A stretch of DNA of 64,000 nt from positions 7,475,601 through 7,539,600 of the forward strand of contig OX442324.1 in assembly GCA_949358305.1 (NCBI GenBank), given 5' to 3'. Positions within the stretch are counted from its first letter, which is position 1. Every line of letters begins with the position of its first letter. The notes beneath the pieces were generated by a model. That model did no database searches, had not been told where the DNA came from, and worked only from the letters and a program-made list of their open reading frames with translations. Below, piece by piece: positions 11,927 to 57,416 of the stretch. A program made the translations under genes and the position numbers. The stretch comes from Strigamia acuminata. Its lineage: Eukaryota; Arthropoda; Chilopoda; Geophilomorpha; Linotaeniidae.

Positions 11927-14900
11927 TCAAGCGGTTAGAGTACTAAGATCAATTAGGAAACAATTACAAAATTTCACAAGATCATTCTTGTCAACAGACT
12001 TAGTAAATATATCGGCAAAATTACACTTCGTTCCCACGTGTATAATCTGGAGATTTTGTCTCCTCACGAGCTCCCGTATAAAATGATATCTAATATCTAT
12101 GTGTTTGGTTTTGCGATTCTCGATATTAGATTTGGTGAAGTCCACAGTGGAAATGTTGTCACACAGGACTCGATGATGAAATTTATCAGCCAAATTGGGA
12201 ACAATCTCGTGCAAAACTCTAACGATCCAAATGTAGTCCTTCACAGTTTCCGTGAGGGCTACGTACTCCGCTTCCATAGTCGATAATGTAACGTTTCGCT
12301 GCTTGAAAGTCCTCCAATAAATGGGTGCATCTCCAAGTGTCACAAGGGTTCCTCCAACAGAGATTCGATCGTCTCTGTTGTTCGCGTAGTCCGAATCACT
12401 AAAACCGACCACTTCAATTCAATCATTTGGGAACAACGCTAAACCATGATTTCTCGTCGTCCTCAAATAACTTAACAAGTCCAATAGAACAATCCAGTGA
12501 TCCCATCCTGGATTGGATTGAAACTGACTCAGGATATTGACGGCGTAGGTCATATCGGGTCTTGTTCGAGAAGCGATGAATGCCAAGCATCCAAGAAGAC
12601 TTCGGTAAGGGATTCCTTCCATTATCTTGAAGTCCTCCAGTGTATCCGGACATTGTCGCTTGGTGAGAACAGTGGACTTAGTCATCGGTTGTGATCTGAC
12701 TTTCACCAATTCCAAATGATTCTTGAACTTCAGCAAAACTTTGTTGATGTATGACTTCTGATGTAGGATCATTTGTTGATTATGCTGGTAGAATTCAACT
12801 CCCAAAAGTTTCTTAGTTTTACCCAGAATCACAAGGTCGAATTGGGTTTTAATCATGTCCAATACATTCATCGCGTCTTGGTGTTGTTTGCCAAAGACGA
12901 CAATATCGTCGACGTACACGATGAGATAGGCGACATCTCCGTATTTGTAGACACAATTACACCAGTTCACATGCTGTAGGCCAAGGTTCAATAAAGTGTC
13001 TTCCAGTTCAATGCCCCATTATCTCCCAGATTGATGTAAGCCATATATTGCGCGAAGGAGGCGGCAAACATAAGTTTCTTTCCCTCGGCAAACAAATCCT
13101 TTGGGTTGACGCATATATACTGTCTTGTGTAATTTCGCATAAAGATATGCGCATTTTACATCCGCTTGAATATAGGACCATTTCAACATGCAAACGAGAA
13201 GTGTAAACATGAAGCGAACGATGGAAAAGTCCACCACAGGCGAGAAAGTTTCTTCATACGATTCCCCGTAAATTTGGGAAAAACCTTGCGCCACAAGTCT
13301 CGCTTTGTATCGTGCAATTTGTCCATCTTCGTTCTGCTTGACGGTGTAAATCCACTTGCAACCCACCAGCTTCACATCAGGTGGCGGTGGAACCAGTTCC
13401 CACACCTCTCGCTCATGCATCGTATCGATTTCGTCGCACATCGCTTGATTCCAGTCTTCCTTCTCTGGTAAATTGGCTATTTGTTCAAAGCGTGTCGGTA
13501 TGTCGACTTCGAGATGATTAGCTTCGAGAGTGAAGTCGTCAAGATCCAAGTCGAAACTGTCAGCCGTCGTATTCGATTCAGAAGGCTTCTTCTTTCTTTT
13601 GTCCTCGAAGAGATGTTCGGGAACACAAAGCTTGTGGTCTGCACAGTATCGTTTTACTTCTGGTATCGAACGCAATTTCGGCTTATCATATCCGACGATC
13701 GTATACTCAATGTCCTTCTGTCCCGTCGGCCTAACTTTTTCTGTCTTCCTCCAAACAAGTGCGGGTATTGTCGCAACGGGATTTACAAGTGCTTGTCCGG
13801 GTTGCGGCAAAACGTTTGGATATTTAACTCCTGGTAAGTTAGGTTGCAGTTTCTCATCTGGCAGTCTAAATTTCAATTTAAATTGCGGCAGCTCTTGTTT
13901 AGCGTCTTCTTCTTTCTTAGCTGGTTGTGGCGGGGGAAGTGGCGGCCTCACGTCTTCATCGGAGTAGTACTGACGATCGTTGTTGTCGTCCAAGTTATCG
14001 TTCAAATTGTCTACATACGTAGTATATTTCTCTGGTAGGCCCAGCACGCCTTCAACTCCGCGCCTGCTTTCTACAAATTTGACGTCGTTGGTTTCGATCA
14101 CCTTCGAAAATTGTGGCAACCAGATCCTGTACCCTTTGGTAATCCTCGAATACCCGAGCATAATTCCATGTAGACTCTTATTGTCTATTTTCCCAAAGCA
14201 CAAACTCCCAAACTTTCTCAAATGTCTGAGTGATGGCTTGCGACCATAATACAGTTTCATTGGCGTCTTGTGAGAATTCAACTTCGCAATCCTATTCCTG
14301 AGGTAGTTGAATGTTAGAATTGCTTCACCCCAAAATCGGTGTTCCAAGCCGGCATCGTAGACAAGCGCTCGCATTCCATTGGCTAATGTTTGATTGAGTC
14401 TTTCGGAAACTCCATTCTGGACTGGTGTGTATGCATTGGTCCTTTCGTGTTTAATCCCTTGTTCTTCAAGGTATAAGCCAAACTTGTTGGAACAGAACTC
14501 CATCCCGTTGTCAGTTCGAATGGCTAAAATTGACTTGCTGAGTAGCCGCTCAATTCATTTTGCGTGCTTCCGAAATAAATCAAACACCTCGTCCTACCTT
14601 TTCATCAAAAACACTGTTGAATAATGTGAATAATCGTCCGTAATAGTAAGGAAATATCGGTTTCCTGAAAGTGTAGGCGTCCCAAAAGCTCCGCATACAT
14701 CCATGTGCAAAAGTTCCAGCGGCTCTTTTGACCTGATTCCCGGCAAAGATTTGTGTGGTACTGCCTTCTTCTTTGCGAGATCGCACACGTCACATTGTGT
14801 TATTGGCACATCCAGCATTGGCAGTCCAATCACTGCATCCACTTTACTCATATGTTGTACGCTGGGAAAATGAATATGTCCTAAACGTTCGTGCCAAAGT

Positions 14901-16930: not shown

Positions 16931-17401
16931 TGTTGTTTATCGATGCCAAACAATCCTCCGTACTTGTTTTGCGCATTTCTTAATGTATTACTGCATTATG
17001 CAGCCTAGTGTATTTATTAGGATTTATTTCATTATTTAACATTGGGCATAATGCTGCCTCTATACTGTTTACATTTGTATTACTTATTATCAACACCAGA
17101 TGGTGTGCATGTATGTTTTTCTCAATCACAATGGCCGCTTGCATGCCAGCAAGCACTCATGCATTTTCTCCATCTAAATGGACCAAATTATGTAAGCATT
17201 TTCGTTTTTATTAAACATTTAGTTTATTTTTACATTGTGTTTGTCACTTATGAGCACTTTAGAGTGCAGTGACTTTATTTTCCACCATTTGCAAGTGCTG
17301 GAGGTGCGCGCACGCCATTGCGCTCATATTAGCCGTGTTTCGGCATTTAAACTCGCTTCCACACACAGTATTTCATACTGTGAGCGCACTCCTCTGCTAC
17401 A
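16931..17401 (+). repeat. Y1 5' LTR
   Basis: Starts TGTTGTTTATCG and ends CCTCTGCTACA. The last ten bases before the terminal A can pair with the primer-binding site that follows two bases later. The first 130 bases resemble the Y2 LTR, then the two differ. A hairpin CAGTATTTCATACTG lies at about 17367-17381. Confidence 0.95.
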
Positions 17402-17403
17402 AG

Positions 17404-17421
17404 TGGTAGCAGAGGATGGTT
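17404..17421 (+). other. Y1 primer-binding site for initiator tRNA-Met (3' end)
   Basis: TGGTAGCAGAGGATGGTT is complementary to the CCA-tailed 3' end of eukaryotic initiator tRNA-Met (acceptor and T-arm side). It lies two bases after the LTR, as usual in LTR elements. Confidence 0.9.
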
Positions 17422-18266
17422 GCTATCCTTGCAGCACGCCGAAACCGCTAATTTTTATCGCCATTTTCGCCAAATTCGCGAATTTGCGATAAATTTTCTA
17501 TTTGCAGATTGCGCCGATTTCCGCGACGATTTTCGTCTCTAGAACGTTCGAGACGACACGCCGACGTTCTCACGTAGTCTGCACGACTAATTTCGTCCGA
17601 ATTTCTGCGTGTTTCGCAATTTTCGAGACGAATTTCGATTTATTTTCAGGTTTTTGCCATTTTCCAACGAGATTCAACGTTGGAAACCCGCTTTACACAG
17701 CGTGAACGACGATTTGGACTAATTCCCGACTTAGTACACCGTGTACGGTCGTTGTCACGACGATTTTCGAATTTTTCGGCGAGAAAAACGACGATTTTCG
17801 AAGATTTTCGCATTTTAAATGCGCAACAACGCCATTTTCGATTCTCGAATATTGGCGCAACGTCTCATCACACTAATTAATACTTGCCTTTCAGTTGTCG
17901 TAATTAGCTTGTTAGTATTTAAGGTCGTATTAAGTTTTTGTGGGTCCTTTAGAATAGTTTTTGCTCTTCTGTTCCAGTCGGAACTACCGCATTAACTCAT
18001 TCCTAGCCAGTGCTTACCGTGGCCAACAGGTACTCCCGCGCCTCCAGGCAGGCGAACGGACCCCTGTGTGTTGGCTGGCTAGGGTTATTTGGCCACTTCA
18101 GAAGTGGTCGCCCAATTCGATTGATATCCGCTTTGACAGTGCTCCGATTAGTGCGCCGTATTTGTGTAGTGCTACGCGATATTGTGCACCGAGACCGTCA
18201 AGTGCTCCAATTGTACCATTCTCTATCCAGTGTGTTTTGCTACGGATTGTTTCGTAACTCCACGTC
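17422..18266 (+). other. Y1 untranslated leader
   Basis: 845 bases between primer-binding site and gag without a convincing ORF. It is rich in CGACGATTTTCG and GAACGT words, and has two pyrimidine-AG stretches (ending near 17506 and 17650) that look like splice acceptors and mark loosely repeated units. The equivalent leaders of Y2 and P1 have clear ~161-bp repeats. Confidence 0.6.
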
Positions 18267-21200
18267 ATGTCGAAGTCCGCAGATGGAAATCCAGGACGTC
18301 TTCCCATCCTTAGCGTAGGAAACTACGAACTTTGGCAGCGCTCAATGCGCATGGTACTCCGAAGCGAGGAATTGTGGGAACACGTAACGGAAGAAGAGGA
18401 GGAAGATTTCCTTAAAACCGCCGGAGATAAGGAGAAGAAGAAATACAAGCGTCGTAAAGCCAAGGCATTAGGCTTAATATACTGTTCTGTAAGCGAGGCG
18501 AAGAAGTCTGCGCTAGATGATTGTAAAACCCCGAAGGAAGCATGGGACATCTTAGCCAACATTTATGCGCCATCATCTCGTGCGCGACAGGCAGCCATGC
18601 GCCGCGAATTTTTGAATTTGCGCCTGGAGCAGGGCGAAGATATGGCCGACTTCTTAGGACGCGTAGACTATCATGTCCGCCAAATGAAGGATATCGGAGA
18701 GATAACTACGCCTGATCATCACGCTTACCAATACTTGGACTTATTACCTCGTGAATATTCACAAATTTCATTCACGACATATCACTTGCCCAAAGGAGAA
18801 TTTACACCAAAGAAAGTGTCTGAACAGTTGCTCGCGGAACATATGCGACTCAAAGCTATGGATTCGCGCGACATAGACAATTCTAAACCTCCACGTGCCT
18901 ATGCTGGTGAAAAACAGCAACGTGGGAGAAATCGTTCTCGTCCCTCTCGACCGTTATCTTCGGTGCAGTGTTTTAATTGCCAGGAATTTGGCCATTACGC
19001 AAATAAATGTCCATTACCATCGCGCCGAGATGACAAAAATCAACCGGCAGCTTCACTCCAAAGGAAGCCGAGGAGTTCAAGCCGCAAACGCAACAAGAAC
19101 TCAAACCGGGATGATTCGAGGCCAAGGGGGAATTCCAGCGCAAGGCGGGAAACAAACTTTTTCGCAAGTGCTCCGCAACAGTTGCCCACAATTCACTTCA
19201 TGCAATCACATGAATGGATCGTGGATTGTGGGGCAACCGATCATGTGTGCCACGTTCAAGCATGGTTTCAAGACTTTGTCAAAGTTGTGCCCTTTAATAT
19301 CGCTTTAGGCCAGGGACATTCCGAAGTTCTAGGAAAGGGCAAAGTCCAGATTATCTCCATGATCAACAACGTAGAATGTGTCGTAAATCTCCAAGATGTG
19401 TTGTATGCGCCAAAATTTGAGGCAAATTTGATTTCAGTGTCAAAAATGGACAAAACTAAACATCACATCCATATTTGGAATGGAGACGTCTATGTCTACA
19501 AATCCGACATTAAACATCCAATGCTTCGGGCCAAAGAAAAGGGCGGCCTTTATTATGTCGACGGCTTGTGCCCACCTTCAACACTGATGTCAACAGTGGA
19601 TGTACCTATTGCGCAGTCAATCGCTCCGACCCGAACATTAGTCATGACAGAAGAGGATTTCATCCAGTATCCAAGAGCAAAGAAAAAGTCGAAAAATCCT
19701 GAACTTTTTACTGATTTTCGGCTCGAATTCCCTCCTTTACCGAATGAAATTCCTCCACCTGCACCAATTAAAGTAACCCAGTCCAAGACACTTCCTGTAC
19801 CTACTCCCACCAATCCGTTACCTCAAGTCCCATCCTTTGCCAAGACATTGAAGGCAAACCCACCGATCTCCCAACCGAGTTCAAATTCAAAACCGAATTC
19901 AAAGCCAACCAACGCAAAGAAGGTTGCAGCACCATCGGTTAAAAAGGATGCGACAGGGATATGGCACAGCAGATTGGGTCACCTTCATACCAATGCGATG
20001 AAACTTTTGGCCGGAAATGACCAAGTGTATGGAGTGACTCCGGCAGAAGTAAACAAAGAACTCTCATGTAATCATTGTCGAATTGCGAAATCAACGTGCA
20101 TTTCTCATAAACCTGATGAACATCCTATATCTACAAAGGCTTTAGATCTCCTACACATGGACGTGTGGGGAGCTTCAAGAACGACTTCCTACGGAGGCGC
20201 GCGTTATGTGTTAACGATTATCGATGACGCCACGCGCTATGCCTGGATATTTCCGATGGCCCAAAAATCCCAAGTGTTTGGACTCTTTAAGGACTATGTC
20301 ACACGAATTGAACGAGTGACGGGCAAACGAGTCAAGGCCATCCGAACAGACTGAGGAGGGGAATTCTTATCAAACGAATTTGACCGCTATCTAAAAGAGA
20401 CCGGAATTCAGGCCCAAAGGACCAATCCACATAGCCCGCTATGAATGGCACAGCGGAGCGAATAAACCGCACCATGGCGGATTACACGCGTGCCATACTA
20501 GATGAAACTGGACTTCCAAACGAACTTTGGGCGGAATTCGCAGTGACTTTCTCGTACATAAAGAACCGGTGTCCTCATTCTCGTCTCAAAAATGAGGTGC
20601 CCTATATCCTGTGGCGACGACGTGCTCTTTCGCTCAGACACCTGCGCAAGTTAGGCTCCAAGTGCTGGGTTCATCATACAGCGCCCGGCAGGGACAAATT
20701 GGATCCACGAGCTTGGGAGGGCTATTTAGTCGGATACGCCACGACAACGCGAGGTTATCGCGTCTGGAATCCAACAGATAACAAGGTTATCGAGTCCATT
20801 CACGTCAAAATAGATGAACGGCAGTCCTATAAACGCTCAAATCATTATCGAGGTCCACAGGAACCGTGGACAGGACCAGATTTGGACCAAACGCATCAAG
20901 CGTCGCAAATTTATGAACCATTGCGCATTTCACAACCGCAAGTGAGATTTGACGACGAGTTGGAATATACCGATTGGCCCAAATTTCCGGATTCAGAAGA
21001 TGAATGCGATACAGACTATGACTCTGACGATTCAGCTCCGCCAGGCGCTCAAGCCCGGACACCACCAGGGTCTCCAATTAGGATTCCAACACCTGTCCTA
21101 TCTCCAATAATTTCTCCAGTGATATCTCGAGCGCCAAGCCCACTTATCACACCTGGTAATACACCAACTCAAACACCACCAGGTTCACCTCCGAGTTTTG

Positions 21201-23092
21201 TGAACGCTCGTCGAGGTTCTCGTGGCAATGCGCCACAAGCCCATCCAGCAGCGCATCATGGTCCACCTCCAACTGGAGCTGCAACTGCTTATAAATGGCG
21301 TTACGTCGGAGGCGATTCAGTGTGTAGACACTGGAAAAGAGAGGAACATTTGCGCAAAGTGCAGGAACCTGGCAAATTGAAAACAGATGTTTATTATTTC
21401 CCAGAAGCAGGACTCCGATTACGTTCTAGAGGTGACGTTGAGGAATTCTGTCATATGAATAACATTCCTTACGATCCTGAGCTATTTTATTTTGGCAATA
21501 TGGAATATGAATTGGAGGATCTTCCGCAACCACTTCCCAGAGTGCACCTTTGTCGTCGTGATCCCACTAGTTACGCAGAGGCTGTAAAATTTCCGGATGC
21601 GACCAAATGGCAGGAAGCCATTAATGAAGAGTTGGACACTTTTGCAAAAAGAGGAGTCTATGAAGAAGTCCCGAAACCGGAAAACACGACGATATTAGGA
21701 TGCAAATGGCTCTTCAAACTGAAGGAAGATGCTTTAGGCAAGCCAGCAAGATATCGCGCCAGATTAGTGGCACAGGGCTTTCGCCAAACGTTAGGAGTGG
21801 ACTACGATGAAGTCTTTAGCCCTGTTGTCAATTTTGTTCTCATACGCCTATTCTTCTGCCTGCTAGTAGTGCTTAAAGGGTGGAAGGACGCACACTTAGA
21901 TGTGAAGTGCGCATACCTATACGGTGATCTTGCGCATAAGGTGTATATGCGCATTCCAGCTGGCGCGACATGTTCGAACCCAAATCATGTATGGCTTTTG
22001 ATAAAGTCTCTCTACGGACTCCATCAGTCCGGGCGCCAATGGTTTGAAAAACTAAATCAGACTTTGCGCGATTTGGGATTTCGCAGATTACCAGGATGCA
22101 ACTGTGTATACATATACGGTTTCTCCGCCGTAATGCTAGTGTACGTCGATGATATAGTTCTATTCTACGCGACGGATAGCGTCCTGACTCAATTAATTGC
22201 GCTCATTAGCACCAAATTCGACATCGTCAATTTAGGCCCAATTTCAAAACTTTTAGGTGTAGAGTTCATCCGTACTCCCAAAGGAATCTTCATTATCCAA
22301 CGTGCATACATACAGAAGATTCTCAAGAAATTTGAAATTGTCGCCGATAAACTCATCAAGGTCCCAGTAACACCAGGAACGACGCTCGTCAAAGGGTCGA
22401 AAGAGGACTTGCCAGAATTTCCTTATCGTTCGTTAATTGGCTCTCTTCTCTTCCTCGCATCGAGGACACGACCTGATATATTATTCTCAGTGATAATGTT
22501 GTCACAGTTCAACAATTGCTACAACCACACTCACATCAAGGCGCTCATGCAGGTTGTGCGCTATGTAGGCAATACTTTGGATTATGCAATTGAACTGTCA
22601 AATTGTTCCAATGGACAGCTATGGGGATATACTGACGCGTCCTGGGCCACCGAAGTCAGCACTTCTTTGAGTTTCGGCGGGTATATAGCCTATATTGGAA
22701 TTGCCCCCATCGGATGGAGTTGCCGTAAACAAACCAGCGTGGCGTGCTCAACGATGGAGGCGGAGTTTGTCGCCCTCGTTGAGTGCGTCCGTGAACTTTA
22801 TTGGCTGGATTACGTCTACAGTTCCGTCCCGATGCTGAATAGATCTTCACCACCTATAGTGTTCTCCGATGCGCTTTCTTCCATCCAATTCACATCAAAT
22901 GACGTGGAGAACAGTAAAACGAAACATATCCGAGTGAAATTTCATTGGATTCGGGAATGGTACACAGCAGGTGCATTTCAATTGCGCAAAGTCCCCGGAT
23001 CAATGAACGTGGCAGACATCTTTACCAAATGGTTGGGCTCATCTCAACTGCGTCTCCTGATTTCCCGGATTTTCAATTTCAACCTATCGTGA
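18267..23092 (+). pseudogene. gag-pol: Y1 gag-pol polyprotein, nearly intact (one stop, one frameshift)
   Basis: Gag starts at the ATG at 18267 (MSKSADGNPG), a UBN2-type Copia gag with a CCHC knuckle at residues 235-248 (CFNCQEFGHYANKC). The protease has VDCGATDHV with Asp at residue 320, Cys replacing the usual Ser or Thr. Integrase has HSRLGHLHT/CNHCRIAK, Asp632 in LHMDVWG and Asp695 in IRTD; the next codon is TGA (20352-20354) where Y2 has Arg, and a 1-base deletion near 20437 shifts the frame before the Glu of NGTAERINR. A Pro-rich linker and an MBD-like domain (21296-21496) precede the reverse transcriptase (CKWLFKLK; YVDDIV at 22142) and RNase H (YTDASWA, STMEAEFVAL, VADIFTKW). Both breaks are recent because the remaining frames are open. 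Confidence 0.95.
21296..21496 (+). other. MBD-like (methyl-CpG-binding domain) segment in Y1 pol
   Basis: About 67 residues between integrase and reverse transcriptase. Visible pattern: HWKREEHLRK, then PGK, TDVYYFPEAG, RLRSRGDVEEF, and YDPELFYF. These match in order the MBD signature: W-x-R, basic loop and Gly-Lys, D-V-Y, P-x-G, R-S-(K/R)-x-(D/E)-(V/L)-x-x-(F/Y), and DP-x-(D/L)-F-x-F. The Asp and Tyr of DVY and the Arg of LRS align with MeCP2 D121, Y123 and R133; the other arginine finger (R111) is not obvious. Family membership is inferred by eye from this pattern. Confidence 0.7.
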
Positions 23093-23300
23093 CATTCTTA
23101 ATTTTGTTTTTCCCGAATTTTGAGGATCATCGAGTTCCAGTGGGAATTTTCGGGCTTTCGTAGTGATTAATTTAACAGTACCCGGCTCGATGTTCCGAAT
23201 TATTATTTCCATTATTATTATTCTATGTAAAGTTACATTTAAAGTTTTTCCCTTAACTTATTCTTTATTTTTGCGGCTATTTCCCATCGAAGGGGGAAAT
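23093..23300 (+). other. Y1 3' untranslated stretch and polypurine tract
   Basis: About 200 AT-rich bases after the RNase H stop. They end in CGAAGGGGGAAAT (23288-23300), the purine-rich primer for plus-strand synthesis, directly before the LTR start TGTTG. Confidence 0.85.
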
Positions 23301-24094
23301 TGTTGTTTATCGATGCCAAACAGTCCTCCGTACTTGTTTTGCGCATTTCTTAATGTACCGTACTGCCTCGATTTAACGCCGGTCGTATCTAAACGCCGGC
23401 TCCTGATTAAGCGCCGGGCAAACTGAGGACGAAATGGCAATAAACGCCGGCCTTAAATGAACGCCGGGTTTGTTTAAACGCCGGGTTGAAACGTTTTTTA
23501 AACGTTTTGAGAGGTCTTTTGGTCGAAACATCGAAGAATAGCTAGCAATGAGTGGCTTTCCAATTTTTTTTTTCGGGTAGACGCCCGGCGCGAATAATCG
23601 CCGGGCTTTGAATGAACGCCGGGGGGGTCAACTAGAAAAAATGAATAAACGCCCCGGCGTTAAATCGAGGCAGTACGGTATTACTGCATTATGCAGCCTA
23701 GTGTATTTATTAGGATTTATTTCATTATTTAACATTGGGCATAATGCTGCCTCTATACTGTTTACATTTGTATTACTTATTATCAACACCAGATGGTGTG
23801 CATGTATGTTTTTCTCAATCACAATGGCCGCTTGCATGCCAGCAAGCACTCATGCATTTTCTCCATCTAAATGGACCAAATTATGTAAGCATTTTCGTTT
23901 TTATTAAACATTTAGTTTATTTTTACATTGTGTTTGTCACTTATGAGCACTTTAGAGTGCAGTGACTTTATTTTCCACCATTTGCAAGTGCTGGAGGTGC
24001 GCGCACGCCATTGCGCTCATATTAGCCGTGTTTCGGCATTTAAACTCGCTTCCACACACAGTATTTCATACTGTGAGCGCACTCCTCTGCTACA
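23301..24094 (+). repeat. Y1 3' LTR, carrying a MITE
   Basis: Same ends and sequence as the 5' LTR apart from rare substitutions, interrupted after AATGTA by the 321-bp element at 23358-23678. The downstream ATACT is the target duplication. Confidence 0.95.
23358..23678. mobile_element. 321-bp MITE with TA duplication and repeated ACGCCGG words
   Basis: Comparison with the unoccupied 5' LTR shows an exact insertion at TA, duplicated at 23356-23357 and 23679-23680. Perfect terminal inverted repeats of 25 bases begin CCGTACTGCCTCGATTTAAC. Inside, the word (A/G)CGCCGG recurs about nine times in both halves. No ORF of its own. The TA duplication suggests mobilisation by a Tc1/mariner-type or another TA-targeting transposase; the source element is not in the window. 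Confidence 0.93.
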
Positions 24095-26133: not shown

Positions 26134-26625
26134 TGTAGCAGAGGAGAGCGGCGCAAACGATTTATTAATCGCGTGGAAGCTGAATTTGGTGTCGTGTCGC
26201 CGACACGAACGATAATGCGACGTTACCAAAACGCAAATTGCCGTGCGCGCAGCAGAAAGCTGCTTATGTGCGCATTAAACGAACTAGAAAGCACTGAAAG
26301 TGCTCTAAATAATAATAAGGCATTTAAAATCATAAACATTTAATAAAAGCAAAGATATTCTTACATATAGAGTCCTTTTCTATATAGGAGTGAATGAGTG
26401 TGCACATATCCGTGTGCGCGGCCATGTTGGAAATGGTAAAAGATACAATTGACACCCTCTGGTGTTGGGAAAAATAAACTAAAGCTAACATGATGCAGGC
26501 AGCATTATGCCCAATGTTAAATAATGAAATAAATCCTAACAAATACACTAGGCTGCATAATGCAGTAATACATAAAGAAATGCGCAAAACAAGTACGGAG
26601 GACTGTTTGGCATCGATAAACAACA
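26134..26625 (-). repeat. Y2 3' LTR with polypurine tract
   Basis: On the minus strand it starts TGTTGTTTATCG after a purine run (CGAAGGGGGAAAT, 26626-26638) and ends CTCTGCTACA. It contains stem-loops such as GTGTCGCCGACAC and AGCACTGAAAGTGCT. Beyond the first 130-150 bases it differs from the Y1 LTR. Confidence 0.93.
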
Positions 26626-28425
26626 ATTTCCCCCTTCGATGGCAAATAGCCACAAAGATAAAGAATAAGTTAGGGAAAAACTTTAAATGTAACTTTACAA
26701 TATAATAATAATAGAAATAATAAGTCGAATCATCGAGCCGGGTACTGTTATAATTATCGCTACGAAAGCCCGAAAATTCCCACTAGAACTCGATGATCCT
26801 CACATTCGGGTAAAACAAAATTAAGAATGTCACAATTGGTTGAAATTGAAAATCCGAGAAATCAGCAGACGCAGTTGAGATGAACCCAACCATTTGGTAA
26901 AAATGTCTGCTACGTTCATTGATCCGGGGACTTTGCGCAATTGAAATGCACCTGCTGTGTACCATTCCCGAATCCAATGAAATTTCACTCGGATATGCTT
27001 CGTTTTACTGTTCTCCACGTCATTTGATGTGAATTGGATGGAAGAAAGCGCATCGGAGAACACTATAGGTGGTGAAGATCTATTCAGCATCGGTACGGAA
27101 CTGTAGACGTAATCGAGCCAATAAAGCTCACGGACGCACTCAACGAGGGCGACAAACTCCGCCTCCATCGTTGAGCACGCCACGCTGGTCTGTTTTCTAC
27201 AACTCCATCCGATGGGGACGTTTCCAATATAGGCTATATACCCGCCGAAACTCAAAGAAGTGCTGACTTCGGTGGCCCAGGACGCGTCAGTATATCCCCA
27301 CAGTTGTCCATTGGAACAATTTGACAGTTCAATCGCGTAATCCAAAGTATTGCCTACGTAGCGCACAACCTGCATGAGTGCCTTGATGTGCGTGTGGTTA
27401 TAGCAATTGTTAAACTGTGACAACATTATAACTGAGAATAATATGTCGGGTCGTGTCCTCGATGCGAGGAAGAGAAGAGAGCCTATTAGTGAGCGATAGG
27501 GAAATTCTGGCAAATCTTCTTTTGACCCTTTGACGAGCGTCGTTCCTGGTGTTACTGGGACCTTGATGAGTTTATCGGCGACAATTTCAAATTTCTTGAG
27601 AATCTTTTGTATGTATGCGCGTTGAATAATGAAGATTCCTTTGGGAGTACGGATGAATTATACACCTAAAAGTTTTGAAATTGGGCCTAAATTGACGATG
27701 TCGAATTTGGTGCTAATGAGCGCAATTAATTGAGTCAGGACGCTATCCGTCGCGTAAAATAGAACTATATCATCGACGTACACTAGCATTACGGCGGAGA
27801 AACCGTATATGTATACACAGTTGCATCCTGGTAATCTGCGAAATCCCAAATCGCGCAAAGTCTGATCTAGTTTTTCAAACCATTTTCGCCCGGACTGATG
27901 GAGTCCGTAGAGAGACTTTATCAAAAGCCATACATGATTTGGGTTCGAACATGTTGCGCCAGCTGGAATGCGCATATACACCTTATGCGCAAGATCACTG
28001 TATAGGTATGCGCACTTCACATCTAAGTGTGCGTCCTTCCACCCTTTAAGCACTACTAGCAGGCAGAAGAATAGGCGTATGAGAACAAAGTTGACAACAG
28101 GGCTAAAGACTTCATCGTAGTCCACTCCTAACGTTTGGCGAAAGCCCTGTGCCACTAATCTAGCGCGATATCTTGCTGGTTTGCCCTGCGCATCTTTCTT
28201 CAGTTTGAAGAGCCACTTGCACCCTAATATGGTTGTATTTTCCGGTTTTGGGACCTCTTCATAAACGCCTCTTTTTGCAAAAGTGTCTAACTCTTCATTA
28301 ATGGCTTCCTGCCATTTGGTCGAATCCGGAAATCTTACAGCCTCTGCGTAACTAGTGGGATCACGACGACAAAGGTGCACTCTGGGAAGTGGTTGCGGAA
28401 GATCCTCCAATTCATATTCCATATT

Positions 28426-28626
28426 GCCAAAATAAAATAGCTCAGGATCATAAGGAATGTTATTCATATGACAGAATTCCTCAACGTCACCTCTAGAACG
28501 TAATCGGTGTCCTGCTTCTGGGAAATAATAAACATCTGTTTTCAATTTGCCAGGTTCCTGTACTTTGCGCAAATGTTCCTCTCTTTTCCAGTGTCTACAC
28601 ACTGAATCGCCTCCGACGTAACGCCA
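28426..28626 (-). other. MBD-like segment in Y2 pol
   Basis: Nearly the same as in Y1: HWKREEHLRK, TDVYYFPEAG, RLRSRGDVEEF, YDPELFYF. Only one residue near the Gly-x-Arg turn differs (His for Leu). Its retention in a second copy shows it is part of the family, not a chance capture in Y1. Confidence 0.7.
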
Positions 28627-29696
28627 TTTATAAGCAGTTGCAGCTCCAGTTAGAGGTGGACCATGGTGGGCTGCTTGATGAGCTTGTGGCGCGTTTCCAC
28701 GAGAACCTCGACGAGCAATTACAAAACTCGGAGGTGAACCTGGTGGTGTGTGAGTTGGTGTATTACCTGGTGTGATAAGTGGGCTTGGCGCTCGAGATAT
28801 CACTGGAGAAATTATTGGAGATAGGACTGGTGTTGGAATCCTAATTGGAGACCCTGGTGGTGTCCGGGCTTGAGCGCCTGGCGGAGGTGAATCGTCAGAG
28901 TCATAGTCTGTATCGCATTCATCTTCCGAATCCGGAAATTTGGGCCAATCGGTATATTCCAACTCGTCGTCAAATCTCACTTGCGGTTGTGAAATGCGCA
29001 ATGGTTCATAAATTTGCGACGCTTGATGCGTTTGGTCCAAATCTGGTCCTGTCCACGGTTCCTGTGGACCTCGATAATGATTTGAGCGTTTATAGGACTG
29101 CCGTTCATCTATTTTGACGTGAATGGACTCGATAACCTTGTTATCTGTCGGATTCCAGATGCGATATCCTCGCGTTGTGGTGGCGTAACTAACTAAATAG
29201 CCCTCCCAAGCTCGTGGATCCAATTTGTCCCTGCCGGGCGCTGTATGATGAACCCAGCACTTGGAGCCTAACTTGCGCAGGTGTCTGAGCGAAAGGGCAC
29301 GTCGTCGCCACAGGATATAGGGCACCTCATTTTTGAGACGAGAATGAGGACACCGGTTCTTTATGTACGAGAAAGTCACTGCGAATTCCGCCCAAAGTTC
29401 GTTTGAAAGTCCAGTTTCATCTAGTATGGCACGCGTGTAATCCGCCATGGTGCGATTTATTCGCTCCGCTGTGCCATTCATAGCGGGGCTATGTGGATTG
29501 GTATTTTGGGCCTGAATTCCGGTCTCTTTTAAATAGCGGTCAAATTCGTTTGATAAGAATTCCCCTCCTCGGTCTGTTCGGATGGCCTTGACTCGTTTGC
29601 CCGTCACTCGTTCAATTCGTGTGACATAGTCCTTAAAGAGTCCAAACACTTAGGATTTTTGGGCCATCGGAAATATCCAGGCATAGCGCGTGGCGT

Positions 29697-31457
29697 CATC
29701 GATAATCGTTAACACATAACGCGCGCCTCCGTAGGAAGTCGTTCTTGAAGCTCCCCACACGTCCATGTGTAGGAGATCTAAAGCCTTTGTAGATATTGGA
29801 TGTTCATCCGGTTTGTGAGAAATGCGCGTTGATTTCGCAATTCGACAATGATTACATGAGAGTTCTGTTTACTTCTGCCGGAGTCACTCCATACACTTGG
29901 TCATTTCCGGCCAAAAGTTTCATCGCATTGGTATGAAGGTGACCCAATCTGCTGTGCCATATCCCTGTCGCATCCTTTTTAACCGATGGTGCTGCAACCT
30001 TCTTTGCGTTGGTTGGCTTTGAATTCGGTTTTGAATTTGAATTCAGTTGGGAGATCGGTGGGTTTGCCTTTAATGTCTTGGCAAAGGATGGGACTTGAGG
30101 TAACGGATTGGTGGGAGTAGGTACAGGAAGTGTCTTGGACTGGGTTACTTTAATTGGTGCAGGTGGAGGAATTTCATTCGGCAAAGGAGGGAATTCGAGC
30201 CGAAAATCTGTAAACAGTTCTGGGTCCTTCGACTTTTTCTTTGCCTTTGGATATTGAATGTAGTCCTCTTCTGCAGTGACTAATGTTCGGGCTGGAGCGG
30301 TCGTCTGTATAACTGGCGCATTAACTGTTGATATGACCGTTGAGGGTGTACATAAGCCGTCGACGTAATACAGACCGCCCTTTTCTTTGGCTCGAAGCAT
30401 TGGATGATTGATATCGGATTTGTAGACATGGACTCCTCCATCCCAAATATGGATATGATGTTTGGCTTTGTCCATTTTTGATACGGAGATCAAATTCGCC
30501 TTAAATTTTGGCGCAAACAATACATCTTGGAGATTCGCGACACATTCTACATTGTTGATCATTGTGACAATCTGGCGTTATCGATAATCGTTAACACATA
30601 ACGCGCGCCTCCGTAGGAAGTCGTTCTTGAAGCTCCCCACACGTCCATGTGTAGGAGATCTAAAGCCTTTGTAGATATTGGATGTTCATCCGGTTTGTGA
30701 GAAATGCGCGTTGATTTCGCAATTCGACAATGATTACATGAGAGTTCTGTTTACTTCTGCCGGAGTCACTCCATACACTTGGTCATTTCCGGCCAAAAGT
30801 TTCATCGCATTGGTATGAAGGTGACCCAATCTGCTGTGCCATATCCCTGTCGCATCCTTTTTAACCGATGGTGCTGCAACCTTCTTTGCGTTGGTTGGCT
30901 TTGAATTCGGTTTTGAATTTGAATTCAGTTGGGAGATCGGTGGGTTTGCCTTTAATGTCTTGGCAAAGGATGGGACTTGAGGTAACGGATTGGTGGGAGT
31001 AGGTACAGGAAGTGTCTTGGACTGGGTTACTTTAATTGGTGCAGGTGGAGGAATTTCATTCGGCAAAGGAGGGAATTCGAGCCGAAAATCTGTAAACAGT
31101 TCTGGGTCCTTCGACTTTTTCTTTGCCTTTGGATATTGAATGTAGTCCTCTTCTGCAGTGACTAATGTTCGGGCTGGAGCGGTCGTCTGTATAACTGGCG
31201 CATTAACTGTTGATATGACCGTTGAGGGTGTACATAAGCCGTCGACGTAATACAGACCGCCCTTTTCTTTGGCTCGAAGCATTGGATGATTGATATCGGA
31301 TTTGTAGACATGGACTCCTCCATCCCAAATATGGATATGATGTTTGGCTTTGTCCATTTTTGATACGGAGATCAAATTCGCCTCAAATTTTGGCGCAAAC
31401 AATACATCTTGGAGATTCGCGACACATTCTACATTGTTGATCATTGTGACAATCTGG
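29697..31457 (-). repeat. Internal tandem duplication of about 880 bp in Y2
   Basis: The segment 29697-30570 (part of protease, pre-integrase zinc region and start of integrase) recurs almost unchanged at 30578-31450. The junction at about 30570-30577 joins the protease to ATCGATAATCGTTAACACA of the integrase. The copies differ by very few bases, so the event is recent. Confidence 0.93.
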
Positions 31458-32536
31458 ACTTTGCCCTTTCCAAGAACTTCGGAATGTCCTTGACCTAATG
31501 CTATGTTAAAGGGCACAACTTTAACAAAGTCCTGAAACCAAGCCTGGACGTGGCACACATGATCCGTTGCCCCACAATCCACTATCCATTCATGTGATTG
31601 CATGAAGTGAATTGTGGGCATTGGTTGAGGCGCACTGGCGAAAAAGTTCGTTTCCCGTCTTGCGCTGGAATTCCCCCTTGGCCTCGAATCATCACGGTTT
31701 GAGTTCTTGTTGCGTTTGCGGCTAGAACTTCTTGGCTTTCTTTGAAGTGAAGCTGTCGGTTGATTTTTGTCATCTCGGCGCGGCGGTAATGGACATTTAT
31801 TTGCGTAATGGCCAAATTCCTGGCAATTAAAACACTGCACCGAAGATAACGGTTGAGAGGGACGAGAACGATTTCTCCCACGTTGCTGTTTTTCACCAGC
31901 ATAGGCACGTGGAGATTTAGAATTGTCTATGTCGCGCGAATCCATAGCTTTGAGTCGCATATGTTCTGCGAGCAATTGTTCAGACACTTTCTTTGGTGTA
32001 AATTCTCCTTTGGGCAAGTGATATGTCGTGAATGAAATCTGTGAATATTCACGAGGAAATAAGTCCAAGTATTGGTAAGCGTGGTGATCAGACGAAGTTA
32101 TCTCTCCGATATCCTTCATTTGGCGGACATGATAGTCAACGCGTCCTAAGAAGTCGGCCATATCTTCGCCCTGCTCTAGGCGCAAATTCAAAAATTCGCG
32201 GCGCATGGCTGCCTGTCGCGCACGAGATGATGGCGCATAAATGTTGGCTAAAATGTCCCATGCTTCCTTCGGGGTTTTACAATCATCTAGCGCAGACTTC
32301 TTCGCCTCGCTTACAGAACAGTATATTAAGCCTAATGCTTTGGCTTTCCGACGCTTGTACTTCTTTTTCTCCTTGTCCCCAGCTGTTTTAAGGAAATCTT
32401 CCTCCTCTTCTTCCGTTACGTGTTCCCACAATTCCTCGCTTCGGAGTACCATGCGCATTGAGCGCTGCCAGAGTTCGTAGTTTCCTACGCTAAGGATGGG
32501 AAGACGTCCTGGATTTCCGTCTGCGGACTTCGACAT

Positions 32537-33318
32537 GACGTGGAGTTACGAAACAATCCGTAGCAAAACACACTGGATGGAGAATGGTACAATTGGAGCA
32601 CTTGACGGTCTCGGTGCACAATATCGCGTAGCACTACACAAATACGGCGCACTAATCGGAGCACTGTCAAAGCGGATATCAATCGAATTGGGCGACCACT
32701 TCTGAAGTGGCCAAATAACCCTAGCCAGCCAACACACAGGGGTCCGTTCGCCTGCCTGGAGGCGCGGGAGTACCTGTTGGCCACGGTAAGCACTGGCTAG
32801 GAATGAGTTAATGCGGTAGTTCCGACTGGAACAGAAGAGCAAAAACTATTCTAAAGGGCCCCCAAAAACTTAATACGACCTTAAATACTAACAAGCTAAT
32901 TACGACAACTGAAAGGCAAGTATTAATTAGTGTGATGAGACGTTGCGCCAATATACGAGAATCGAAAATGGCGTTGTTGCGCATTTAAAATGCGAAAATC
33001 CTGGAAAATCGTCGTTCACGCTGTATAAAGCGGGTTTCCAACGTTGAATCTCGTTGGAAAATGGCGAAAACCTGAAAATATATTGAAATTCGCCTCGAAA
33101 ATTGCGAAACTCGCAGAAATTCGGACGAAATTAAATAGGCAATTGTGCAGCCGGTAGTGCAGACTGCGTGGAAACGTCGGTGGGTCGTCTCGAACGTTCT
33201 AGAGACGAAAATCGTCGCGGAAATCGGCGAAAACTGAAAATAAAATATTTCGGCGCAAATCGCGAATTTCGCGAAAGTTGCGTCAAAAATTAAACACAAA
33301 TTGGCCGGGTTAATTGGT
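32537..33318 (-). other. Y2 untranslated leader with ~162-bp repeats
   Basis: About 780 bases from primer-binding site to gag. CTGAAAATA units start at 33072 and 33234 (plus-strand coordinates), period 162, each followed by TTCGCGAA-like and GACGAAAATCGTCG words. The same period occurs in the P1 leader. Confidence 0.65.
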
Positions 33319-33336
33319 AACCATCCTCTGCTACCA
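33319..33336 (-). other. Y2 primer-binding site for initiator tRNA-Met (3' end)
   Basis: The minus strand reads TGGTAGCAGAGGATGGTT, identical to Y1, two bases after the LTR end. CCTCTGCTAC and GTAGCAGAGG across the junction form a perfect 10-bp inverted repeat with a 5-base loop. Confidence 0.9.
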
Positions 33337-33338
33337 AT

Positions 33339-33830
33339 TGTAGCAGAGGAGAGCGGCGCAAACGATTTATTAATCGCGTGGAAGCTGAATTTGGTGTCGT
33401 GTCGCCGACACGAACGATAATGCGACGTTACCAAAACGCAAATTGCCGTGCGCGCAGCAGAAAGCTGCTTATGTGCGCATTAAACGAACTAGAAAGCACT
33501 GAAGGTGCTCTAAATAATAATAAGGCATTTAAAATCATAAACATTTAATAAAAGCAAAGATATTCTTACATATAGAGTCCTTTTCTATATAGGAGTGAAT
33601 GAGTGTGCACATATCCGTGTGCGCGGCCATGTTGGAAATGGTAAAAGATACAATTGACACCCTCTGGTGTTGGGAAAAATAAACTAAAGCTAACATGATG
33701 CAGGCAGCATTATGCCCAATGTTAAATAATGAAATAAATCCTAACAAATACACTAGGCTGCATAATGCAGTAATACATAAAGAAATGCGCAAAACAAGTA
33801 CGGAGGACTGTTTGGCATCGATAAACAACA
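33339..33830 (-). repeat. Y2 5' LTR
   Basis: 492 bp, almost identical to 26134-26625, with the same TGTTG and CTACA ends. The adjoining GTTCA (33831-33835) is the target duplication. Confidence 0.95.
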
Positions 33831-33835
33831 GTTCA

Positions 33836-36809
33836 TTGCTTGGCGCCATTCATTCTTTTCGGGTAAAGTTGCTATTTCTTCATAACGTACAGGCACGTAG
33901 ACTTCTAGGTGATTAGCTTCAAAGTCGATTGTCAAATCATCCAAGTCTATGTCGAAACGATCTGCCGTCGTATTGGATTCAGAAGGCTTCTTTTTTCTTT
34001 TGTCCTCAAAAAGATGTTCAGGTACGCAAAGATTATGCTCTGTGTAATAACGCTTCACGTCGGGTATCGAGCGTAACTTGGGTTTGTCGTATCCCTCGAT
34101 CGTGTACTCGACATCCATCTGTTCAGTTGGTCTGATCTTCTCTGTTTTCTTCCAAACTAGTGCTGGAATAGTTGGAACTGAATTCAAAAGTCCTTGTCCG
34201 GGTTGTGGCAAAGTATTTGGAAGTTTTACTGCTGGCAAATTATGTTGCAACTTCTCGTCTGGCAGTCTAAATTTCAATTTAACTGGGGGCAATTCCAGTT
34301 GTGGATCTTCCTTCTTCTTAACTGGCACTGGCGGGGGTAGCGGCGGCCTCACATCTTCATCCGAATAATATTGGCGATCATTGTCATTGTCCAAATTGTC
34401 GTCCAAATTATCGATGTAAGTCGTGTACTTCTCTGGTAAGCCCAGCACGCCTTCAACTCTGCGCCTGCTTTCTACGAACTTCACGTCGCTGGTTTCGATA
34501 ACCTTTGAAAATTCCGGCAGCCAAACTCTGTATCCCTTCGTGATTCTTGAATAACCGAGCATTATTCCATGTAAACTCTTATTGTCTATTTTCCCATCTC
34601 GTATTTTTTTCTGCACGAAGCAGAGACTTCCAAATTTTCTCAAATGACGCAAAGATGGTTTTCTGCCATAGTAAAGTTCCATCGGCGTCTTTTCCGAACT
34701 CAGCTTGGCAATTCTGTTCCTTAGGTAGTTGAAAGTTAGAATTGCTTTGCCCCAAAAACGGTGTTCTAAGCCGGCATCGTAAACAAGCGCTCGCATCCCA
34801 TTTGCTAACGTCTGGTTCAGTCTTTCGGAAACGCCGTTCTGGGCGGGTGTGTACGCATTCGTCCTCTCATAGGCGATTCCTTGCTCTTCAAGGTATTGTC
34901 CGAACTTGTTGGAGCAAAACTACATACCATTATCCGTGCGAATGGCTAAAATTGATTTTCCCAACAGTCTTTCTATCCGTTTCGCATGTTTTTGAAAAAT
35001 CTCAAATACTTCATCCTTCTTCTTCATTAAATAGACTGTCGAATAACGAGAGAAGTCGTCCGTAATGGTTAAGAAGTATTTGTTTCCCGAGAGCGTTGGT
35101 GTGCTAAATGCTCCACACACATCCATATGCAACAACTGTAGTGGTTCTGTTGATCTAATCCCTGGTATCGACTTGTGTGAGACTGCTTTCTTCTTTGCTA
35201 ACGTGCAAACATCGCATTGCGTGATTGGGACATTGAGAATTGGCAACCCAATCACTGCTCCTCGCTTACTCATCTCTTGTACACTTGGAAAATAAATATG
35301 TCCCAGCCGCTCATGCCAAAGTCTCGCTTCCTCTGGATTAGATGTGCTCTTTGTTGTGTTCTTTGTTAAATTAGTTGGCTCTTGTTTCTTCTGTTCGCCA
35401 ACATTCGCTTTGTTGTTCGCCTTTTGCTTTAACTTCTCGAAGTCGGGTTTCTGGTCACTCAGTTTGATGAAATATAATCGATCCTTCTTCACGCCTTCCA
35501 TCAACTGTCTTTTCCACTGAGGATCGTATATTTTGACTAGTCCTGAGCCAACGGCGACTTTGCATCGTGCCTCGTCAATGCATGGTCCCGACAACAAATT
35601 TCTTCGCAAGTCTGGCGCATAATAAACTTTCTTAACCGTAATCGGAATTGTCTCGTTTCCGACTAAACTCATCACGCAGACGTCCCCGACGCCCTGGATT
35701 TGAATCAAAATTTTCTTATCCGCCTGGCTTATTGTTCCTGTTGTTTCTTTAAAGTTGAAGAATTGGCTTTTATCTTTGCAAAAGTGTCCAGTGGCCCCGG
35801 TGTCGTAGATCCAACAATTGTTGGCTGCGCTGCACTGCAACATCTCTTCTTCGCTCAACTCGGTGAGAAAACCGACGTCGAACATATTCGTGTCCAATTC
35901 CTCGACAGTATTCGTATTCTGGCTGTTGTTTGGTGCGAGCTGCGCCGTGCAGTCCCTCGCCCAATGTCCTGGCTGATTGCATCGGAAACACGGCCCCCGT
36001 CCTGATGATCCGGTTGTGTTTCCCCAAAAATTCCTTGTATTTTTGCCGCCTCTATAGTTTGATCGGCCACCTTTCTGTCCACCACCATATCCTCGATTGT
36101 TTTGGCCACTATTTCCCTGCTGCTGTTGAAATTTGGGCACATTGTTGTTATTCTTTGTGTTGGAGTTGCTCGGCCCCGTAGTGAAAGCATCTATGATTGA
36201 TCCCTGACCCGAATCTCGCCTTTGCTGCGCGAGTCTGCCTTCTTCGGCGACCAACTCCGCTTCGACTTTCTCTAGTGTAAAATCCTTATCGTCCCATCGA
36301 TAAATGCTCTGCACAATCGACTGGTACTCCTGTGGCAGGTATCGGATTAGTTGAAATGCCTGATATAAATTGTCCAAATCGTGCTTGACGTCGGCTAGTT
36401 GCTTTGCCACATTGCGTATCTTCGCCGCGAACACGCTGATCGTCTCCGTTGTTGGTTCGTACTTTAGGCTGAAGAATTCGTCCAGCAGACGTATTATTCT
36501 CGCCCTCGAGACCGGTTCAAAGTTAGTTTTCAGCGTGTCCCACGCTGTTTTCGCATCTTCGGTCCCGCTGAGCAATTCGTGGTATTGCTCCTCTATGGCG
36601 TAGTAAATTAAGCTGAAGGCTCGCCCCTTACGCAGTTGATAGTCCGAACGATCACGCCAAGATGCTCCCGGTGCCAGCGCTTCTTGTGTTCCATCGGTGA
36701 AAGCCCAACATCCATGATGCATCAACAGCACTTTCATTTGCTGTTTCCACGTATCATAGTTCGTTCTGTTCAAAAGTGTCACTTTCCTCTCTGGTTTTTC
36801 TGCATCCAT
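33836..36809 (-). pseudogene. gag-pol: X2 gag and N-terminal pol (gag, protease, integrase, MBD-like domain)
   Basis: Gag begins at the ATG whose first base is 36809 (MDAEKPERK), the position matching the X1 start; an upstream in-frame ATG at 36905 is less likely. UBN2-type gag with a Gly/Asn/Gln-rich tail and CCHC CFRCNQPGHWARDC. Protease has YDTGATGHF. Integrase has HERLGH/CDVCTLAKK, LLHMDVCG and IRTDNG; a TAG at 34920-34922 breaks it where X1 has Glu. It continues with NGVSERLNQ, a Pro-rich linker and an MBD-like segment, and ends at the Y2 insertion point. The polyprotein resumes at 26133. Confidence 0.94.
34008..34154 (-). other. MBD-like domain in X2 pol
   Basis: The minus strand reads a Trp-Lys-Lys start, MDVEYTIEGYDKPKLRSI, DVKRYYTEH and HLFED. 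As in X1, the Asp of DVEY and the Arg of LRS fall where MeCP2 D121 and R133 lie. The start Trp and the Arg-Ser pair are shared with the Y and P versions. Confidence 0.5.
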
Positions 36810-39399: not shown

Positions 39400-39716
39400 T
39401 GTTAGAATTGTTTATAAACTTGTGTGGATAGCATTGATCTGCAATGGTGTGGAAAATGTCCAAAGGTAAGAAACAGCCAGGTGTTCACAGGTGTGAAATC
39501 AAACATAGAGTGAGTGCTTTATTCTCAAGTCATGTGACTCCTTAAGTATACAGTGCCACCTATAGGCATATTATAACAGTTAAATATGTGAGGTATTGCA
39601 AACACTCGTAATGTGAAAAAGCAAAAGCAAACAATTACACATGTAACAATTGAGAACATTATCGCTTGATAATACGACAGAATAATACAGTAATTAATGA
39701 GTACGACAAGTTAACA
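39400..39716 (-). repeat. X1 5' LTR
   Basis: 317 bp, TGTTAAC to TCTAACA, partner of 11592-11908. The target duplication GAATG follows at 39717-39721. Copies of this LTR occur at 43446-43762 and 50556-50872 as part of the inverted duplications, not as new insertions. Confidence 0.95.
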
Positions 39717-56208: not shown

Positions 56209-57416
56209 AAAATGTCAGCTATGTTCAGTTTTGACTTCCCTTCCGTTGACGACACAAACCCCCTTATCCATGGCTTTGTCCCAGTCTTCATCGTTGACAC
56301 CAGTCATTGTATTCAGATCCAAGCAGCAAAGGCTCGCGAATGGTAGAGGGGCTTGTGCTTGTGGTTTTGCCTTAAAATCGAATAGGCTCGCGTCGTATTC
56401 GACTGCCTCTTCTTCACACCATCTGACCACATCAATACGGCTCCTAATTCTAACACCTCCTGGGGTAATATAATGAATGAAAACAGTCCCGGCCTGTGCT
56501 CCGGACTTTCTCGTATATTCAAATCTTTTCCATTTCGTTATATCAATTTGTTGTAATTGAGCACCCCCAACTGCCCCAGTATGTCTGCCCTTTACATTAG
56601 GAGACTGAGCGACTGCCTCTTCATACTTGTCATCATCATCGCTGCCCTCACTAGGGGTAGTCTCCCCTGTTGCCTGGGTAACATCCTCTGGTAATGCAGG
56701 TAAAGTGGGGCCCAATTGGGGTACTGGAGCGGGTTGAGACGTAGAGGGCTCAACTTCTGGCTCCACCGCTGTTTCAGCAGGAGTAATCTGCGTCGTTGTT
56801 GGTTTGACGGGGGCTGTGTTGGTAAAGGAGGAGGGGGACTCTGAGGAATCGCCTCCTCTTCTGATTCGCCTTCACTAACCAGGTGAATATAATCATCGGA
56901 CCCAAATCCCTTTTTGGTCTTCGACTTTACCAAACCTTTTAAAATTGTCGGTTCCCCTTCGTACCAGTATTGACTCTCATCAATTTTTACATGCTTAGAT
57001 GCAATGATTTTTCTCTTGTGTGGGTCCCAAATCCTGTATCCAGAAGTGGTTATTGCGTAGCCAACTAAAACTCCCACCCAAGCTCGACTGTCTAATTTAC
57101 TTTTTCGGTTTTGCGCCGGGATGTGTACGTATACCTTCGACCCGATACAGCGCAAATGTCTCACTGACACACGGCGTCCAAAGAACACGTTATAGGGGGT
57201 CCGCCCCTGTAAACTAGAGTGAGGGTACCTGTTTTTCAAATACACAATGGTATTTGCCAACTCAGCCCTTAAAAAGTGTGGAAAATTATTTTCAATTTCC
57301 ATTGCCCGCACCCCCTCTACGATGGTGCGATTCGATCGCTCCGCCACCGAATTCATCTTAGGGCTATAGGCGTTGGTCCGTTCACATTTAATTCCGCAAG
57401 ATTTTGCATGATTATC
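56209..57416 (-). pseudogene. Copia Q: integrase C-terminal half, linker and MBD-like domain
   Basis: The minus strand reads CERTNAYSPKMN, VAERSNRTIVEGVRAM (catalytic Glu), YLKNRYPHSSLQGRTPYN, GYRIWDPHKRKI, then a Pro-rich and acidic linker that shifts frame near 56750, the MBD-like segment at 56374-56532, and DEDWDKAMDKG, where the reverse transcriptase should begin but does not. The upstream end is fused to P2 pol with no LTR between. It is a doubly truncated fragment of a fourth family. Confidence 0.85.
56374..56532 (-). other. MBD-like domain in Q pol
   Basis: The closest of the set to an animal MBD in its N-terminal half: KWKRFEYTRKSGAQAG, then YITPGGVRIRSRIDVVRW, EYDASLFDF. W-x-R, RKSG, P-x-G, R-S-R and the terminal FDF all match the MBD consensus. 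The D-V-Y strand reads FIH instead, so the Asp aligned with MeCP2 D121 is lost while the R133 equivalent is kept. Confidence 0.72.

Follow-up and report, generated by a model that had tools for sequence, protein, structure and literature searches.

Chromoviruses are Ty3/Gypsy elements with a chromodomain on the integrase tail, and these chromodomains are thought to tether integration to chosen chromatin. Here we describe Copia elements in which a methyl-CpG-binding domain (MBD) stands between integrase and reverse transcriptase (RT). The element studied most closely, Y1, lies in a window of 64,000 nucleotides (nt) of Strigamia acuminata contig OX442324.1, and coordinates below are positions in this window. 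Both chromoviruses and MBD-carrying Copia elements have a reader module, a proposed tether, downstream of the integrase core. The latter differ in having integrase before RT, an MBD and not a chromodomain, and a module that would read DNA and not a histone. For Copia-type integrases, passages of two reports describe a Ty1 C-terminal part that contains a disordered end, a nuclear signal and a targeting domain binding AC40, and a Ty5 targeting domain that binds Sir4 (PMC9673352, PMC5738225). The elements described here likewise have a putative targeting element, towards the C terminus of a Copia-type integrase; those of Ty1 and Ty5 are short motifs that bind host proteins and not a folded DNA-binding domain.

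The nearest report that we found, as far as its passages go, concerns SymbioLINE-Dnmt and SymbioDIRS-Dnmt3, retrotransposons that captured DNA methyltransferases (PMC5890265). These elements also took up a piece of the DNA-methylation machinery, but theirs is a writer (methyltransferase) in LINE and DIRS elements, whereas here it is a reader in Copia (PMC5890265). In the titles, abstract openings and passages that our literature search covered (including PMC8616336 and PMC8885841), no MBD-carrying Copia element was found, although Repbase and Dfam, which lay outside its scope, may hold such elements unremarked. This agrees with an earlier note on this DNA, made from the sequence alone, which knew of no described Copia family with an MBD.

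Results

The earlier note had recognized, from a series of motifs, an MBD-like segment of 67 residues at 21296..21496 (+). This segment translates stop-free as described and lies in frame within an open frame of 885 amino acids (aa) at 20435..23092 (+); the reverse strand has three stops over the same stretch. Pfam finds in this frame, in order, SH3_retrovirus (residues 63-132), MBD (residues 299-353) and RVT_2 (residues 408-645), with a proline/serine-rich linker between the integrase SH3-like domain and the MBD. The Pfam MBD profile (PF01429, curated cut-off 21 bits) gave 27.6 bits (E 2.3e-6) for the segment alone and 22.8 bits, just above the cut-off, within the whole frame. The domain had also been claimed for a second copy, Y2, and this copy, on the minus strand, scored 22.8 bits. 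When PDB sequences were searched with the single segment, MBD2 ranked first (E 0.0049). A hidden Markov model (HMM) of 14 relatives, from which all Y-type and P/Q rows were excluded (the leave-out HMM), gave the Y1 segment 50.2 bits, and the best of 2000 shuffles reached 10.4 (1895 shuffles scored). Only 6 of 28 MBD-less Copia loci gave any score with it, the top one being 4.2. A profile of nine rows matched the solved structures of MBD2 (4.7e-13), MBD4 (1.1e-12), MBD1 (8.1e-12) and MeCP2 (1.5e-10), and also those of MBD3 (3.2e-10), plant MBD6 (9.8e-8) and BAZ2B (4.7e-5). As MBD3, which is not methyl-selective, was also matched, the profile does not settle selectivity.

The AF2 model of the Y1 MBD has strands at residues 18-25 and 31-39 and a helix at 49-58, which is the wedge fold of antiparallel strands with a long loop, followed by a helix packed on the sheet. 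In the structure comparison that the earlier note had proposed, the first PDB matches of this model were MBD/TAM structures, and the same was true for the predicted fold of the MBD of a relative. Among the viral structures of BFVD the best match had an E value of 0.16. The two outcomes named beforehand as speaking against the domain, absence of a profile match and a fold without the MBD architecture, did not occur. Sequence profile, profile-to-PDB search, predicted fold and key residues all agree in identifying the 67 residues as a genuine MBD.

In alignment A3, which has 21 rows, several of them near-identical, four columns are invariant (W17, R24, R47 and S48), and D35 is present in 20 rows. 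We take R24, R47, S48 and D35 to be the equivalents of MeCP2 R111, R133, S134 and D121, which contact methyl-CpG. By this presumed equivalence the two arginine fingers, the Asp and the RS pair are all present at the DNA face, and the Y1 codons aligned with R111, D121 and R133 start at 21353, 21386 and 21422 (+). These residues, together with profile match and predicted fold, are what the domain has in common with the MBD family (PF01429: MeCP2, MBD1, MBD2, MBD3, MBD4). It differs from that family in sitting inside a retrotransposon polyprotein, in the frequent replacement of a Tyr linked with methyl selectivity, and in its loops, which are one residue longer in Y than in its relatives and shorter in P/Q. 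Rough pairwise ratios of nonsynonymous to synonymous substitution (dN/dS) for the MBD were 0.02-0.24 in the 8 of 11 pairs that allowed computation, with dS saturated in the other 3. The upstream linker evolved faster than the MBD in five of six comparable pairs and slightly slower in one (0.15 vs 0.19); because some rows recur in several pairs, these are not independent. The MBD evolves under purifying selection and seems to be maintained as a protein rather than passively carried.

The module is not restricted to the Y family, as some ten Copia lineages in the genome (237.5 Mb scanned, 157 contigs) have it at the same site, the interval between integrase and RT. With the Y segment, all 150 scored places (the best 150 of 1271 first-look candidates) matched, many of them in open frames of about 1,604-1,621 aa. 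The Pfam MBD profile likewise matched all 150 scored places (the best 150 of 1092 candidates), all above the cut-off and up to 50.3 bits; among the loci tested beside the window copies, relatives reached 48.1 bits. Copia RT was present within the same 3.2-kb stretch in 30 of 30 fetched Pfam-MBD loci (L009-L038) and in a further 10 of 10 (L078-L087). One of the 150 Pfam MBD places, C3:20309085, looks like an exon of a host gene, presumably of the BAZ2 family, and was taken off the distribution list. By sequence we distinguish Y, the L088 family (Y-like, including the window copy at 57622), L011, L080, L009, L014/L041, L016, L081, the L022/L086/L087 group, the family of the window copy at 56323, and P/Q. 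Directly 3' of one MBD-Copia, at L040:5221-7036 (+), a phospholipase A2-like domain (PF08398, 48.6 bits) is accompanied by an rve integrase (54.4 bits) and by a frame that has no Pfam match and resembles a cysteine protease; we take this arrangement to be in the manner of a Maverick/Polinton-like element.

Searches were also made outside this genome. Of 85 candidates in the protein database, the MBD-RT piece of Y matched one, P0002; this is a Copia RT, and its precomputed Pfam list contains RVT_2 only. The stronger query from the L022 family scored none of 334 candidates in this database, which is perhaps poor in animal sequences. None of eight pattern matches in viral contigs was confirmed. 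Among 38 pattern matches in bacterial and archaeal contigs one (L094) passed tblastn; the family profile did not recognize it, and it was taken as chance.

The MBD-less Copias served as controls. The 28 loci, which span scores and frame lengths, were drawn from the best 150 of 2633 RVT_2 candidates, and none of the 28 has an MBD match at E < 0.01. A maximum likelihood RT tree was made from 43 rows: 15 MBD-carrying (one or two for each MBD lineage other than those of 56323 and 57622), P0002, and the MBD-less loci except L062, which a stop had shortened (27 of 28). A branch with support 100/99 separates all 15 carriers from the MBD-less rows and P0002; P/Q is split from the remaining carriers. 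The inner order of the tree is unsure, because the program gave a warning about long branches coming together (that of P0002 and the MBD side, and that of P/Q and the MBD-less side), some rows are partial (three separate P/Q pieces, L009 and L014) and the root was placed at the midpoint for drawing only. As the carriers form one RT clade, a single gain of the MBD in their common ancestor is the simplest reading, and we consider it likeliest that the MBD was gained once in the carrier lineage.

Carriers and MBD-less Copias differ in where they lie. The comparison used top-scoring copies on the main contigs and is not a full census; leaving out small contigs and C7 reduced Y from 108 to 97, L088-type from 42 to 38, other MBD places from 149 to 133 and MBD-less places from 150 to 147. 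The 150 RVT_2 places all counted as MBD-less, 28 of them having been inspected, and 40 of the 149 other MBD places were inspected as Copia. Within 100 kb of a Y copy we found 14 of 38 L088-type, 29 of 133 other MBD and 4 of 147 MBD-less places, against a random expectation of 6.9%. Fisher p values relative to MBD-less Copias were 4e-8 (L088-type) and 4e-7 (other MBD), and they overstate independence because some places duplicate one another. The first 6 Mb of contig C3 contain 21 of its 26 MBD copies, as opposed to 3 of its 26 MBD-less copies. MBD copies lie at a median distance of 2.4-2.8 Mb from a contig end and MBD-less ones at 7.6 Mb (C8 excluded). Contig C13 accounts for 4.6% of the main contigs. 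On it lie 23 of the 97 Y places and 23 of the 142 places with RVT_1 (Gypsy-type) matches, but 4 of 147 MBD-less Copia places, and it is perhaps an unusual chromosome.

The host has four DNMT1-type loci, one DNMT2-type locus and one weak further match, the types being assigned by motifs; an SRA domain and an MBD2/3 C-terminal domain were also found. The DNMT1-type loci (L042-L045, at C1:30368704, C3:32744317, C1:11840161 and C3:35919211) are apparently an expansion.

In the window itself, Y1 extends over 16931..24094 (+), as delimited by comparison of its long terminal repeats (LTRs) and flanks, with a 5-bp target duplication ATACT (16926-16930/24095-24099). Its 5' LTR (17401 being the last position, from 16931) agrees with the 3' LTR (23301..24094, +) over 418 bp at 100% and over 58 bp at 98.3%, and the insertion looks recent. 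The 3' LTR is about 320 bp longer, the extra stretch being 23358-23677, which has a repeated CGCCGG motif and is absent in the 5' LTR. An open frame at 18258..20354 (+) runs, as read by eye, from the gag side to the integrase core. A stop codon inside integrase (20352-20354), after which another frame continues from 20435, makes this copy defective. The second frame holds the integrase end with the SH3-like C-terminal domain (20621..20830, PF25597, 88.1 bits), the MBD (Pfam match 21329-21493), the RT (21656..22369, PF07727, 194.2 bits) and, by reading, the RNase H side. Integrase ahead of an RVT_2-type RT, LTRs and a 5-bp target duplication place the element in Ty1/Copia. It is not a chromovirus, as its RT is RVT_2 and a Pfam search of the 885-aa frame, with E up to 10, shows no chromodomain.

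Y2 (26134..33830, -) has the target duplication GTTCA (26129-26133/33831-33835), LTRs that are 99.6% identical and an MBD that, with short flanks, covers 28378..28611 (-). Y1 and Y2 are two separate insertions, and both keep the MBD. Pfam also places above its cut-off the MBD of another Copia family at 56323..56580 (-), which scores 32.2 bits and has no conserved Asp. The three other window copies were left unflagged by Pfam. A related Y-like fragment at 57622..57858 (-) has no Pfam MBD match at E up to 10; it was placed by alignment and scores 91.7 bits with our own HMM, which was built including that row. Two P/Q copies, at 13586..13780 (-) and 33987..34166 (-), have no Pfam MBD match and score 26.4 and 17.1 bits with the leave-out HMM. 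The maximum for shuffles of the 13586-13780 segment was 11.2 bits (2000 shuffles, 1843 scored), which indicates that the P/Q family has a divergent MBD, with a short first loop.

Two further features of the window were noted. A 933-aa open frame at 5101-7902 (+) carries CxxCxGxG-like motifs close to its beginning and matches nothing in Pfam at E 0.01. Translations of 39701-40345, 42830-43285 and 49940-50571, on both strands, are rich in a FSTRKIFDQENFRPGKF-like unit, apparently a repeat inserted within Copia copies.

Discussion

Our reading, which we hold to be somewhat on the probable side, is that the MBD is a captured DNA-reading tether on the integrase tail, kept under selection, that docks on chosen chromatin. 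A Copia lineage would have captured a host-type MBD, probably once, behind the integrase SH3 domain and ahead of RT, and selection would have maintained it in the descendants as these multiplied to well over a hundred copies. Judging from position and composition, after processing of the polyprotein the MBD most likely remains with integrase as its C-terminal tail, joined to it by the proline-rich and probably disordered linker. There it may tether the pre-integration complex to chosen chromatin by reading DNA, be it methyl-CpG, plain CpG or DNA generally. Since the MBD occupies the place that matches the Ty1/Ty5 targeting domains, we read it as a folded tether with a flexible linker. The earlier note had proposed a module used to choose integration sites; the position behind the integrase SH3 domain agrees with this, and it is position that supports it. 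As for what is read, the residues themselves, that is, the arginine fingers and the Asp, favour methyl-CpG. A more specific version would have this Copia clade read methyl-CpG through the integrase-fused MBD and steer integration by it; the families that replaced the Tyr would have shifted their target, and variation of the MBD would partition chromatin niches among the families. We put this version forward tentatively and regard it as doubtful; if true, these would be the first known DNA-methylation-guided retrotransposons.

Several results weigh against this reading or parts of it. Confidence in the Y model is middling (pLDDT 72.4), Foldseek gave no matches for it at E 0.001, with the BAZ2B TAM domain as the best, and its top VIA rows were MBD3, tied with others. 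Several dS values exceed 1, which makes the dN/dS ratios rough. The MBD could also travel with RT in place of integrase. The Tyr two residues past the Asp, which we take to be MeCP2 Y123 and to matter for methyl selectivity, is present in 9 of 21 rows including Y1, and is V, I, W, H or E in the other 12. Nor was a strong CpG-deamination footprint seen on the copies. The ratio of CpG to GpC transitions was 1.53 (Y), 1.20 (L016 type) and 1.49 (L022 type) in MBD copies, 1.88, 1.29 and 1.10 in three further MBD sets, and 1.35 in MBD-less pairs. These ratios are descriptive, as pairs within a family are not independent; the CpG count filter passed 7 of 11 MBD-less pairs, 2 of 6 in one MBD set, and none in the L088/L089, L009/L010 and Gypsy-type sets. 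Ratios of just 1.10-1.88 argue against dense germline CpG methylation where the copies now sit, and hence against the simplest form of methyl-targeting, and CpG observed/expected in the window is 1.14, not depleted. The idea that the copies lie in heavily methylated DNA was dropped, as the CpG transition counts did not support it. Raw CpG observed/expected values (means of 1.01 for 19 MBD Copia loci, 1.29 for 28 MBD-less, 1.42 for 8 DNMT and 1.03 for 4 Gypsy-type loci) were given no weight as evidence, since families are represented redundantly and base composition differs. Tyr loss and the absent footprint together favour reading of CpG or of DNA generally.

It follows the same line to suppose that the MBD binds DNA regardless of methylation, as MBD3 does, and raises the affinity of integrase or of the pre-integration complex, location then being simply where insertions survive. 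Both arginines are kept in the rows that lost the Tyr, MBD3 fits about as well as MeCP2, and Gypsy-type elements occupy the same compartment. Still, we consider this explanation unlikely, as the Asp is nearly always retained, the best-scoring solved relatives are MBD2, MBD4 and MBD1, ahead of the BAZ2 and SETDB2 domains, and a generic DNA binder need not have this specific fold. A role in anti-silencing, in which the MBD occupies the methylated LTRs of the element itself or competes with the MBD2/3-NuRD machinery of the host, would fit the MBD2/3-type C-terminal domain and DNMT1-type genes of the host and the selection on the MBD. The site inside pol, beside integrase, favours a role in integration instead, and without a footprint on the copies we find anti-silencing quite improbable. 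Chance resemblance, or a functionless gene fragment carried passively, is hardly credible: the Pfam score in the Y1 frame is barely above the cut-off, with the 57622 and P/Q copies missed, but the leave-out HMM with its shuffles, the fold, retention across the clade and the low dN/dS all disfavour it.

The location of the copies has to be weighed separately. The RVT_1 matches (the best 150 of 4264 candidates; four fetched loci were all Gypsy-type) share the bias of the carriers, with 24 of 29 in the first 6 Mb of C3 and a median distance to the contig end of 3.1 Mb. No chromodomain was seen in the four Gypsy-type loci by reading, nor by Pfam in the one (L090) also searched that way. Because Gypsy-type elements crowd the same regions, the contig-end compartment is not specific to MBD elements. 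The earlier note had proposed a role in choosing integration sites; the carriers do show a biased location, yet one common to Gypsy-type elements, and with this control we do not claim contig-end clustering as proof of MBD targeting. A general sink, which MBD-less Copias alone avoid, may account for the location bias. That MBD-Copias and Gypsy-type elements accumulate at insertion-tolerant contig ends, with the MBD irrelevant to location, is a real possibility, if short of probable, and it is compatible with a tether. The Gypsy-type matches fill the same bins without a chromodomain in the loci fetched. On the other side, MBD-less Copias, many of them with frames of 1,300-1,400 aa, show no such build-up (of 26 places on C3, 0 fall within its first 4 Mb), so that such a sink does not affect all LTR elements alike.

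From the chromodomains captured by LTR elements it became clear how a parasite is able to select its chromatin. In Copia, a domain that reads the DNA directly would open methylation-guided retrotransposon integration to direct testing. The captured MBDs, which diverge under selection at key contacts, are at the same time a natural mutation series of the MBD fold.
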